Translations under genes and position numbers: made by a program
The notes under the pieces: model-generated
Told to the model about the DNA's origin: nothing
The model's input: the letters and a program-made list of their open reading frames with translations, nothing else
Database searches by the model: none
Shown here: piece after piece, positions 41,402 to 44,136 of the stretch
How positions within the stretch are numbered: position 1 is the first letter of the stretch
Layout: each line of letters starts with the position of its first letter
NCBI GenBank assembly: GCA_017942035.1
Contig: JAGAVG010000049.1
Location: forward strand, 1 to 50,818
Direction: 5' to 3'
DNA: 50,818 nucleotides
Origin: a bacterium
Lineage (GTDB): Bacteria; Cyanobacteriota; Vampirovibrionia; Gastranaerophilales; Gastranaerophilaceae

Positions 41402-41493
41402 TTCCCTAATCCTCTTAAACTTGTGTAAAATCTATCTTCATAAAGGGTACAATAAAAGCAAATTCAAGTCAACTTTAAAAGCACAATATTAAT

Positions 41494-41519
41494 GGGGCCG
41501 TTCCGAAAGGAACGGCCCC
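41494..41519 (-). terminator. Strong hairpin after LysM gene
   Basis: GGGGCCGTTCC-TTTC-GGAACGGCCCC (minus strand) is a perfect 11-bp GC-rich stem 23 bases beyond the stop codon of the gene at 41543. The tract after it is AT-rich but not a pure T run. Confidence 0.75.
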
Positions 41520-41542
41520 TAACTTTCTTTAATTTTAATATT

Positions 41543-42496
41543 TTAAGCTGCTAAACTAATTTTATCTCCGATTTGTAAAGGCGGTACAGAATTGTAATGT
41601 TTATCATCATAATCATATTTATTTTTGCGCATCAGCCTGTTTGTTTCTTCTAAAATCTCAGCATTTGACGGTTTGTAATTTTCATCAACGGCCTCACCTT
41701 TAGATTTCTGTTCTGCTTTGTATTTGTTAATCAAATTTTCTTTTGCAATATTCCAGAAACATTCACCTTTCTTAACTTCATGACTTACTTCTGTTTCTTC
41801 GGCCGGTGTATCAACAACCGGAACTTCCTCAGCCGGCTTTTCATCCGGAAGCTTAGGTTCTTTTTTCGGAGCCGTATCTTGCGGTGGAGTTACCTTACTT
41901 TCGTCAAAATCAGCCTCATTTGATTTGTTACCGCTGCACATTGCAACAACTCCTGCTCCGATTGCTACAACAGCCGTAGCCAAGGCAATCTTACCCTTAT
42001 TAGCTTTTAAGGCTGCACCTATTCTTGAGAAAAATCCCTTAGATTCTTTTGCTTTTTCACCGATTTTAACTTCGCCAACAATATTTTTAGCATTATTTTG
42101 ACCTTTTAGTTTATCAAAGTGAACTCTGCGTTCTTCTTTCAAGCCTTCTTCATATCTTGCAACTTGTTCTTTTAATTCTTTACCTTTCATTCCTTGTTTT
42201 TTCATAGCTTCTTCGTAAGCTTTTGTACGTTCATTGATTCCTCTTCTGCTGAAATTATTCAACCTCTGCTCGCTCTCTAATTTTGCGATTTCCGCCTTTT
42301 TGTCATCAATCAAAACCTTCAAATCCGGATTTTCACTGGTAAATTTTTTAAGATGATTAATCTTTTTGTAATACTCGCTAATTTCTTTGTCGATATCAGC
42401 ATTTCTGCCTGCAATCGTAGTAAAACGTCCTTTTTGATCCCTTAAAAGTTGTCCTCTTTGTCTGCCATCCATTGCTTCAAGTGCGTGTAGTGTCAT
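41543..42496 (-). CDS. Single-span protein with C-terminal LysM domain
   Basis: A 317-residue protein with a charged coiled-coil N-terminal region (residues 1-165), one membrane span (KIALATAVVAIGAGVVAMC, near 175-195), a Pro/Glu linker, and a LysM domain (SHEVKKGECFWNIAKENL...LQIGDKISLA) at the C-terminus. It likely anchors the cytoplasmic region to peptidoglycan. The start ATG 42496 follows AAGGAGAAAAATT; an upstream in-frame ATG at 42529 has no better site. The promoter and pentamer leader match those of the gene at 11956. Confidence 0.8.
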   Translation of the reverse strand: MTLHALEAMDGRQRGQLLRDQKGRFTTIAGRNADIDKEISEYYKKINHLKKFTSENPDLKVLIDDKKAEIAKLESEQRLNNFSRRGINERTKAYEEAMKKQGMKGKELKEQVARYEEGLKEERRVHFDKLKGQNNAKNIVGEVKIGEKAKESKGFFSRIGAALKANKGKIALATAVVAIGAGVVAMCSGNKSNEADFDESKVTPPQDTAPKKEPKLPDEKPAEEVPVVDTPAEETEVSHEVKKGECFWNIAKENLINKYKAEQKSKGEAVDENYKPSNAEILEETNRLMRKNKYDYDDKHYNSVPPLQIGDKISLAA

Positions 42497-42673
42497 AATT
42501 TTTCTCCTTTTCATTTCCCGTGTAAACATTAAGTTCTAATTTTTCACAAATTTATCCATCCGGTGTAAAACCTTGTTATCACCGATTTTAGAAGTCTTTG
42601 TGATTAAATATCCCCTATGTTTTTATAAACAATTTTAGTTTCGAAAAATTGCTAAAGGCAGACTGCACCGCAC

Positions 42674-42731
42674 CACAGCATAGCATAGCATAGCATAGAG
42701 CAAGTATATCAAGGGTTTTCGCCATTGTAAA
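42674..42731 (-). promoter_or_regulatory. Promoter with TATGC pentamer array at the transcription start
   Basis: TTTACA (42726-42731), 17-base spacer, TATACT (42703-42708). Predicted +1 near 42696 falls in four perfect pentamers (42679-42698) plus a degenerate fifth (42674-42678). The untranslated leader is about 200 bases. The flanks GAGCAA-TATATCAAGG and TAAACTTAT-TTTACAT also match the 13160 copy. Confidence 0.75.
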
Positions 42732-42789
42732 CTTATCTTTACATTTCTTAATATTCAAGCAAAATTAGTACAAAACTGCAAAAATGGGG

Positions 42790-42820
42790 TTGACAAATTT
42801 CAAAACATAGTGAATAATAT
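42790..42820 (+). promoter_or_regulatory. Promoter of the antisense RNA
   Basis: TTGACA (42790-42795) is a perfect -35. At 17 bases lies AATAAT (42813-42818) and at 19 bases TAATAT (42815-42820). Transcription should begin at about 42827. Confidence 0.68.
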
Positions 42821-42826
42821 AAACAC

Positions 42827-42904
42827 AGGGTGGCTGGTTTTCCAGACCTGCCAATAGCCCTTAGAGTTCTGAACGGTTCTTACTTAATGTGAGAGCCGTT
42901 TTTT
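42827..42904 (+). ncRNA. Candidate antisense antitoxin RNA (type I, par/Fst-like)
   Basis: Predicted transcript of about 78 nt from the promoter at 42790 to a terminator made of AACGGTTCTTAC-TTAAT-GTGAGAGCCGTT (42872-42900; 12-bp stem with G-U pairs) and a T run (42899-42904). It has no ORF with a ribosome site. It overlaps the 3' end of the 25-codon gene on the other strand, and GAGTTCTGA (42864-42872) recurs at 42989-42997 in that gene's leader, giving a second region where the two RNAs are complementary. Confidence 0.6.
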
Positions 42905-42957
42905 AATACAAATAAAATCATAAAAATTAGTAATAAACTAATATTGAATTTATCCAT
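42880..42957 (-). CDS. 25-residue hydrophobic peptide, candidate type I toxin
   Basis: The ORF encodes MDKFN, a hydrophobic span (ISLLLIFMILFVL) and a basic tail KNGSHIK. AAAGGGGG lies five bases before the ATG, a very strong ribosome site for such a short ORF. A promoter lies about 90 bases upstream (43050-43078). The stop codon falls inside the terminator stem of the convergent RNA. Size, hydrophobicity, tail and arrangement are those of Fst/Hol_Tox-like type I toxins, which insert in the membrane. No sequence homologue is claimed. Confidence 0.6.
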   Translation of the reverse strand: MDKFNISLLLIFMILFVLKNGSHIK

Positions 42958-43049
42958 ACCAGCCCCCTTTCTAGTCGGGAACCAACCCGAGTTCTGATAA
43001 TGTTGTAGTTGTTCCTGTTAGAAAAGAGCTATCTTTACCCTGCAAAACT

Positions 43050-43078
43050 ATATTACAGTAAACATCTAAAATTGTCTA
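43050..43078 (-). promoter_or_regulatory. Promoter of the candidate type I toxin mRNA
   Basis: TAGACA (43073-43078), 17-base spacer, TAATAT (43050-43055); transcript start near 43043. The roughly 85-base leader contains CTCGGG-TTGGTT-CCCGAC (42976-42990), a stem close to the ribosome site. Confidence 0.5.
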
Positions 43079-43102
43079 TTTCTGAAATACTAAATTAGTA
43101 AA

Positions 43103-43141
43103 ACTTTGTCAAACTAGACTTGACAAAGTTTATGCTATAAT
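43103..43141 (+). promoter_or_regulatory. Operator palindrome and leaderless promoter of the HigB-like toxin
   Basis: ACTTTGTCAA-ACTAGAC-TTGACAAAGT (43103-43129) is a perfect inverted repeat with 10-bp arms over the -35 region. TATAAT (43136-43141) ends six bases before the ATG at 43148, and there is no ribosome site. A repressor on the palindrome would block the promoter. Confidence 0.72.
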
Positions 43142-43147
43142 ACATAC

Positions 43148-43504
43148 ATGACAGAACGCACAACTGCATTGGAAGTACATTTTTACGCAACAAGTTCGGG
43201 TAATGAACCTGTTAGAGAATGGTTGAAGACCTTACCAAAAGAAGATATGCGTACAATCGGCTTTGATATCAAAACCGTTCAATATGGTTATCCAATCGGA
43301 ATGCCATTAACTCGTGTTCTTCATGGTACAGGTGGTTTGGAAGAAGTTCGCTGTAACATATCTAACGGTATAGCACGAGTTATTTTCTATGTCGAAGACG
43401 ATACAATGGTGCTTTTACACGCATTTATTAAGAAAACACAGGAAACCCCTAAAAAAGAATTAGATGTCGCCATTAAGCGGTATAAAGAACTAAGCAAAAG
43501 ATAA
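43148..43504 (+). CDS. RelE/HigB-like toxin (phage Gp49-like, DUF891)
   Basis: A 118-residue protein of the HigB/Gp49 type, predicted to be a ribosome-dependent mRNA endonuclease. Recognisable segments are EVHFYATSSGNEPVREWLKTLP, DIKTVQYGYPIGMPLTRVLHG-type core, LEEVRCNISNGIARVIFYV, and MVLLHAFIKKTQETPKKELDVAIKR in parts. The C-terminal F-x-K-K-T-x-x-x-P block is the family hallmark. It is convergent with, and overlaps by 15 bases, its probable antitoxin. The transcript appears leaderless. Confidence 0.87.
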   Translation: MTERTTALEVHFYATSSGNEPVREWLKTLPKEDMRTIGFDIKTVQYGYPIGMPLTRVLHGTGGLEEVRCNISNGIARVIFYVEDDTMVLLHAFIKKTQETPKKELDVAIKRYKELSKR

Positions 43505-43774
43505 AACAATCTTTTTGCCAAGATATTTAGCGACTTTTTCGATTGTATTCAAAGTTATTGATGTATTATTAGGGTCTAAAATACGACAAATAGCAGTTCT
43601 TGAAGTTTCAAGTTCTCTTGCTAAACGATTTACTGAAATCTTGTCAGCTTTCATTTTTTCTTCTAAAGCATAAGCTATAACCCGTTTTAAAACAACAGCC
43701 TCTGACTCTTGAAGAATATCTTCTTCTTCAAGAAAGCTGTCAAAATTTGAACCTATATGTTTTTTATCAATCAT
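43490..43774 (-). CDS. HigA-like XRE antitoxin
   Basis: A 94-residue helix-turn-helix protein: ALEEKMKADKISVNRLARELETSRTAICRILDPNNTSITLNTIEKVAKYLGKKI (residues about 36-89), an XRE fold with recognition segment TSRTAICRIL. Likely binds the HigB-like toxin and the operator at 43103. Normally higA follows higB on the same strand; here it is convergent with a 15-base 3' overlap. AAAGGACTAAAATA precedes the ATG. Confidence 0.85.
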   Translation of the reverse strand: MIDKKHIGSNFDSFLEEEDILQESEAVVLKRVIAYALEEKMKADKISVNRLARELETSRTAICRILDPNNTSITLNTIEKVAKYLGKKIVLSFA

Positions 43775-43802
43775 TATTTTAGTCCTTTAATTCCACATTT
43801 AC

Positions 43803-43831
43803 ATTGTACCAAAAATGGTGCAATTTTTCAA
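43803..43831 (-). promoter_or_regulatory. Promoter of the HigA-like antitoxin
   Basis: TTGAAA (43826-43831), 17-base spacer, TACAAT (43803-43808). The imperfect inverted repeat TTGCACC-ATTTTT-GGTACAA covers the spacer and -10, a possible autoregulatory site. Confidence 0.68.
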
Positions 43832-43916
43832 CCCCTTATTTAAAATTTGTTAATTTTTAATAGCGGATTTGAATTGCATTAGTCGAAAATTAGTCGCAAA
43901 ATAAAATAAAAACAAA

Positions 43917-43954
43917 AATAAAGGACTTACAGTATTTGTAAGTCCTTTATTTTT
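43917..43954. terminator. Bidirectional terminator hairpin
   Basis: AATAAAGGACTTAC pairs with GTAAGTCCTTTATT (43917-43930 and 43938-43951), with A and T runs at the ends. The preceding bases 43880-43900 contain two TTAGTCG copies; no gene is seen in 43832-43916. Confidence 0.8.
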
Positions 43955-44092
43955 AAATGGTCGGGATGATAGGCTCTCCGTTGGCGAAATGAAATTGAGC
44001 CTTACGGAAGCGAATGCAATTGCTCGTCCATTCTTTTTTTCACTTCTTTTAGAATGGCGTGGCTATTGTCACGATGTAATCGGGGCAGCCCG
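43950..44092 (-). pseudogene. tRNA-Pro-like fragment with inserted hairpins
   Basis: The plus strand TTTTTAAATGGTCGGGATGA (43950-43969) is repeated exactly at 44131-44150, where it is the 3' end of the real tRNA-Pro. The fragment keeps the tRNA 3' end (CATCCCGACCA) and a matching 5' CGGGCTG at 44086-44092, but the middle is replaced by sequences with their own hairpins. It cannot form a working tRNA. It may be an attachment-site remnant. Confidence 0.6.
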
Positions 44093-44104
44093 ACCTAATA
44101 CAAC

Positions 44105-44136
44105 AAAAAAAGACCCACCAATATGAGTCTTTTTTA
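44105..44136 (-). terminator. Terminator of tRNA-Pro
   Basis: On the minus strand AAAAAAGACTCA pairs with TGGGTCTTTTTT (one G-U), directly beyond the tRNA 3' end and ending in a T run. Confidence 0.8.

Follow-up and report, generated by a model that had tools for sequence, protein, structure and literature searches.

The conserved block of about 290 bp at positions 42790-43078 of the window (the whole stretch of DNA analysed, 50,818 nucleotides of a Gastranaerophilaceae genome) is very probably a chromosomal type I toxin-antitoxin locus that is par-like in its working. Comparison of the copies of this element at the sequence level establishes the conservation of the peptide, the covariation of the hairpins, the strand on which they are selected, and the coevolution of two direct repeats (DR1 and DR2). 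From this comparison we infer the following order of pairing and effects: a minus-strand mRNA from the TAGACA promoter would encode a membrane peptide with one span and some 26 residues, and its leader would form a long hairpin concealing the Shine-Dalgarno sequence (SD) and presenting DR1 in its loop; from the convergent plus-strand promoter would come a roughly 80-nt RNA in which DR2 lies open between two hairpins, the second of them a terminator reaching into the end of the toxin gene. This antisense RNA would use its terminator hairpin to contact the 3′ region that it shares with the mRNA, and DR2-DR1 pairing to contact the leader, holding the mRNA untranslated and/or exposing it to degradation. 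When the level of the antisense RNA drops, the leader would refold and the peptide would enter the membrane. The par-like interpretation given in the original prediction is largely supported by the sequence comparisons described below.

Layout of the locus and conservation of the peptide

The block, bounded by two convergent promoters, has a -35 box at each end. Its left end is the promoter of the antisense RNA, TTGACA-N17-AATAAT (42790-42818, plus strand), the top-scoring promoter within 4 kb (11 of 12 positions matched in a promoter scan), kept across copies as TTGACA/TTGAAA...TAATAT. The predicted antisense RNA, the putative antitoxin, extends from 42824 to about 42905 with its start near ACAGGG (about 80 nt; 78 nt had been proposed). 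It comprises a 5′ hairpin (42827-42861), a single-stranded linker carrying DR2 (GAGTTCTGA, 42864-42872), and a terminator (42871-42904) with a 13-bp stem and a T run at 42899-42904; the toxin stop codon lies inside this stem, as had been claimed, and the stem measures 13 bp rather than the 12 bp given originally. In the window this RNA folds as two hairpins (-33.6 kcal/mol, z -5.2), and the folding z of four sister copies ranges from -3.1 to -7.1. The right end of the block is the toxin mRNA promoter, TAGACA-N17-TAATAT (43078-43050, minus strand), found exactly where it had been placed. The mRNA is predicted to start near 43043 (GCAGGGUAAAG), the 5′ end of the predicted minus-strand RNA being CAGGGUAAAG. 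Further along the minus strand are DR1 (UCAGAACUC in the mRNA, 42989-42997), the SD (AAAGGGGG, 42963-42970) and the open reading frame (ORF; 42880-42957) of a 25-residue hydrophobic peptide, MDKFNISLLLIFMILFVLKNGSHIK, the predicted toxin. The ORF with its SD, the plus-strand TTGACA promoter, and both occurrences of GAGTTCTGA (42864 and 42989) agree with the original prediction. Transcription of both RNAs is predicted from these elements; as in type I systems, the putative antisense RNA has its own promoter and is complementary to the toxin mRNA, and, as in par/Fst, the convergent promoters would transcribe the direct repeats both ways. A short stretch of tandem GCATA units (agcatagcatagcatagcatag, 42677-42700) adjoins the element.

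The ORF is intact in 74 of the 76 copies first collected. In a few copies (L003, L017, L072) the ORF is broken or the repeats have diverged. The 140 distinct copies encode 95 distinct peptides of 24-31 aa, nearly all of 24-29 aa and typically of about 26. Asn5 is invariant (75/75), Leu8, Leu10 and Leu15 are nearly so, and the other changes in the span, which was judged by composition to be a single membrane span, are mostly from hydrophobic to hydrophobic residues. The pN/pS ratio is 0.41 in frame; shifting the sense frame gives 0.64 and 1.80. The sequences thus describe a small (<60 aa) hydrophobic peptide, predicted to lie in the membrane and conserved as a protein, as type I toxins are. Searches of Pfam, NCBIfam, PHROGs, PADLOC and PDB gave no credible match to it. 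The peptide is probably toxic when made freely.

Hairpins, leader and coevolving repeats

The stems covary across the family. Among 46 diverse copies, 95.0% of the hairpin cells are paired compared to 90.4% in shuffles, 16 of 33 pairs show changes on both sides, and the covariation is 0.294 compared to 0.197 in shuffles. Wobble pairs reveal the strand of selection, since what is G-U on one strand is C-A, a mismatch, on its complement: in the terminator, 115 G-U pairs fall on the plus strand versus 6 on the minus strand, and in the outer stem of the 5′ hairpin 55 versus 0 (170:6 together), whereas the leader stem beside the ribosome site has the reverse bias (1 on the plus strand versus 11 on the minus, mRNA, strand). 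Judging by these counts, selection acts on the 5′ hairpin and the terminator as parts of the antisense RNA, and on the leader stem as part of the mRNA. The terminator is therefore kept for the antisense RNA and is not a bidirectional intrinsic terminator: the T run is on the antisense side only, and a scan found no terminator in the mRNA direction there. Rfam, searched over the element, gave no match at gathering score, only chance-level matches.

In the mRNA leader, the SD is paired in 91 of 94 predicted folds, mostly with the upstream CUCUUUU through a long hairpin (42960-43031, minus strand), an SD-sequestering stem-loop of the kind found in par/Fst as far as folding predicts; DR1 is mostly unpaired in these folds, and in the window lies inside a 19-nt apical loop (42988-43006). 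The small stem at the ribosome site noticed originally (CGGGUUGGUUCCCG, 42976-42989, upstream of the SD, its mismatches fitting the mRNA strand) is present, and this larger predicted hairpin refines that claim. RNAalifold on the plain alignment did not recover the long hairpin, so it was examined by single folds and an arm-swap test: its middle arm, nnACCnACC with GGGUUGGUU, varies in concert, and the arms reach -23.2 kcal/mol with their own partner versus -21.7 ± 0.2 when permuted. Taken alone, the leader hairpin of the window is no more stable than shuffles (z -0.5); nor is the weak early 5′ hairpin AAAGA/UCUUU (43023-43036, minus strand; z -0.3), possible as an alternative fold only, which competes for the CUCUUUU of the SD-blocking hairpin. 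According to the folding models, the short stem and the weak 5′ hairpin would be alternative folds freeing the SD. The 5′ end of the mRNA is also predicted to fold back on its 3′ part (CAGGGU with ACCCUG), neither side varying enough for covariation. A switch similar to those of AapA1 (PMC6733600) is possible in such a leader. A leader predicted to be self-inhibited, with DR1 in its loop, would also suit an antisense RNA acting as an activator, whose pairing with the repeat opens the SD-blocking hairpin; however, this RNA also covers the ORF end and the 3′ part of the mRNA, an arrangement typical of repression, and it would be out of the ordinary for an RNA of this kind to be a dedicated activator, which makes activation very unlikely.

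The evidence for pairing through the repeats comes from their variation. DR1 and DR2 of most copies have a word of about 8 nt in common, and this word varies between copies. On average, own pairs share a word of 7.8 nt, versus 4.29 ± 0.12 nt for permuted ones (maximum 4.84 in 10,000 permutations). To allow for relatedness, each copy was set against the most similar copy having a different leader repeat: in this nearest-neighbour swap, 93 copies paired better with their own partner, 1 paired worse and 23 were tied. There are 47 repeat words of at least 7 nt (7-11 nt long), and copies that are 94-96% identical differ in both repeats at once (for example, at about 94% identity elsewhere, L083, GAAGCTTGAA/GAAGCTTGAA, versus L082, GAAGACTAAA/GAAGACTAAA). 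The original prediction that the repeats give the convergent RNAs a second complementary region is borne out by this covariation, which is easily explained only by intermolecular pairing. Two equal words of 7-11 bp located about 125 bp apart might instead be the operators of a DNA-binding regulator acting on both promoters, but the word varies among paralogues of the same genome, changing at both places, where a shared regulator would keep one, and both words are mostly unpaired in the predicted RNAs; we regard the operator reading as highly improbable.

For RNA-RNA pairing, the predicted DR duplex within one genome has -12.0 kcal/mol for the own pair (72 copies) versus -5.0 kcal/mol across paralogues (166 pairs). 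The repeat values are conservative, as the alignment behind them loses a few letters in some copies, including that of the window, and so lowers the own scores. Since each copy has its own word, paralogues in one genome are predicted to be mostly free of cross-reaction; the copies of the window, C49 and C47, all in one genome, have GAGTTCT in common and may cross-react.

Relation to known type I systems

The par locus is characterized by convergent promoters, a bidirectional terminator, the DRa/DRb repeats, a stem hiding the SD and a 5′ helix (PMC7472228), and every one of these features except the bidirectional terminator has a sequence counterpart here. The likeness to par of pAD1/Fst (Firmicutes) thus includes the convergent promoters, a short antisense RNA, direct repeats as the second pairing region, the SD-hiding leader stem, the 5′ hairpin and a membrane peptide; it extends to the repeats of par of pAD1, whose differences are thought to confer specificity (PMC7472228). 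The differences concern both the peptide and the RNAs. Fst/Ldr toxins carry a signature composed of a Trp between the span and the charged tail plus P/D/S/TxxxG (PMC7472228); none of the family's peptides contains Trp, the consensus span has no P/D/S/TxxxG motif, and the length is 26 aa versus 33 aa in Fst. The antisense RNA has about 80 nt versus 40 nt in par, its terminator is kept on one strand, one repeat (a word of 7-11 nt) is in the leader and the other in the antisense linker, and the copies form multi-copy chromosomal arrays in Cyanobacteriota. No credible match of the peptide to the Fst/Ldr family models or the solved Fst structure was found in Pfam, NCBIfam or PDB. Owing to the lack of the Trp signature and of a family-model match and to the one-strand terminator, the family is placed as par-like but outside Fst/Ldr; of the original par/Fst-like assignment, the layout, conserved in the copies, stands, and membership of Fst/Ldr does not.

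Among chromosomal systems, Ldr/Rdl, Ibs/Sib and Zor/Orz of enterobacteria are multi-copy or tandem loci encoding tiny membrane toxins with copy-specific antisense RNAs. The present family is like them in these respects and differs in its RNA layout and peptide signature, Pfam giving no match to any of them. AapA/IsoA of Helicobacter has a toxin mRNA with self-inhibiting, metastable folds (PMC6733600); self-inhibiting mRNA folds, including the 5′-3′ fold-back predicted here too, are common to AapA/IsoA, hok/Sok and this locus, which differs from both in the predicted pairing of the antisense RNA with a leader repeat and in its unrelated peptide. No coupled ORF of the mok type is present in the window: the sole other leader ORF (42971-43045) begins with a TTG where the transcript is predicted to start, and it lies clear of the toxin ORF. 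Within the phylum, msoT1/msoA1 of Microcystis aeruginosa, reported in 2025 as the first cyanobacterial type I system, encodes a peptide of 63 aa with two predicted membrane helices, and the available parts of the report describe no coevolving repeat; before it, those parts state, type I systems were known from Proteobacteria, Firmicutes and Tenericutes only (PMC12390103). In the literature covered (published papers available without subscription), this was the sole cyanobacterial case found, and no description of a type I system was found for Melainabacteria/Gastranaerophilales.

Type I systems are hard to detect by homology. From its sequences, the family appears to be a type I toxin-antitoxin system that has so far gone undescribed, with copies tuned against cross-reaction. 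We hold it rather probable that this is a new type I family, confined to Gastranaerophilales as far as searched, with a par-like layout independent of Fst, in which tandem and dispersed paralogues repeatedly swapped a word of 7-11 nt at two places to give about 47 largely orthogonal pairs. It would be an abundant undescribed family in uncultured gut bacteria, for which the comparative evidence is strong. Copies that are nearly identical and differ in both repeats make it testable how paralogous antisense pairs change specificity without a lethal mismatch stage, and the DR words are ready candidates for orthogonal RNA regulators.

Distribution and genomic setting of the family

A search with a covariance model built from 46 copies detected the element in 138 of the 383 genomes of the order Candidatus Gastranaerophilales; all but one of the positive genomes belong to the window's own family, the exception (G201) belonging to another family of the order, and the same search of a sample of the class added no further order. 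A DNA pattern (SD plus ORF start) scanned over GTDB r220 (84,980 species) matched 94 stretches, from genomes named Candidatus Gastranaerophilales, Melainabacteria, uncultured or unnamed bacteria, and three misleadingly named MAGs. These three, named Brachyspira (RUG745; L129), Acinetobacter (RUG672; L142) and Muribaculaceae (NALB_7821b_15; L185), are most likely misnamed or contaminated Gastranaerophilales bins: the GC of L129, L142 and L185 equals that of the remaining copies, and the NusG-L11-L1 genes beside L185 resemble the Gastranaerophilales lineage (judged by eye). The element had no match in plasmid, phage or IMG/VR collections and is therefore not evidently plasmid- or phage-borne.

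The genome of the window has four further full copies (76-78% identity), and the covariance model finds 7 copies in it; because all these, and no fewer than 140 distinct copies across the lineage, keep the promoters, repeats, stems and ORF, the features of the locus are not due to chance. Two other copies in this genome are more divergent (C82:94152-94257 and 94455-94625; L202:1653-2126), one of them encoding MENINLTLIMIFLILFIIKSSTYPKG. Since the copies are related by descent, the counts obtained by comparing them are not independent events. The number of copies per genome varies from 0 to 9 and in MAGs may be an underestimate, as the element may break assemblies: the congener G002 has partial copies at the very start of two contigs (L007:36-67, L008:36-67). 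Copies are single or tandem (L038 holds four 321-bp units). Being short, multi-copy and intergenic, the element could also be taken for a non-coding repeat of the MITE type, mobilised by a transposase in trans, with the ORF and hairpins as by-products, and both transcripts begin with CAGGGU, so that the inner block has short inverted ends. The homology between copies, however, continues beyond these ends and spans both -35 boxes, and a MITE predicts neither the protein-like evolution of the ORF, nor the strand-specific selection of the stems, nor the coevolution of repeats within copies; such an origin is scarcely credible.

The neighbours of the copies in the genome of the window include rlmN, pyruvate phosphate dikinase, ffh and a purine phosphorylase gene. 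The window copy is located within a 2.7-kb accessory segment (41417-44126) between yidC and tRNA-Pro, which is absent from the congener G001, where about 40 bp separate yidC from tRNA-Pro (L227:2030-2070). Tandem arrays and an accessory site are features of many type I systems. The main alternative is a peptide under antisense control that is not a toxin: a small regulatory or stress peptide, for instance one that modulates a membrane enzyme, with the dedicated antisense RNA to set its dose. It would account equally well for the RNA evidence and the conservation of the peptide, and the copies do sit between housekeeping genes; but the patchy presence, the variable copy number, the tandem arrays and the empty site in the congener are unlike a conserved regulator with one partner, and the size, the single span and the antisense layout follow the pattern of type I toxins (PMC7472228). 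We consider it unlikely. The toxin-antitoxin locus may serve maintenance of the accessory segment, stress response or phage defence.

Besides the type I-like locus, the accessory segment carries a 328-aa protein without Pfam match and a Gp49/HTH pair. The ORF of the Gp49/HigB-like toxin (43148-43504, plus strand, PF05973) and that of the Cro/C1-type HTH protein (43490-43774, minus strand, PF13443) converge, with a 15-bp overlap that is unusual in a type II pair. G023, a genome of another genus, has the Gp49 protein at 89% identity, and in G019 this protein is split into two overlapping matches. An inverted repeat (TTTGTCAA...TTGACAAA, 43106-43129) located just upstream of the Gp49 ORF is a possible operator.
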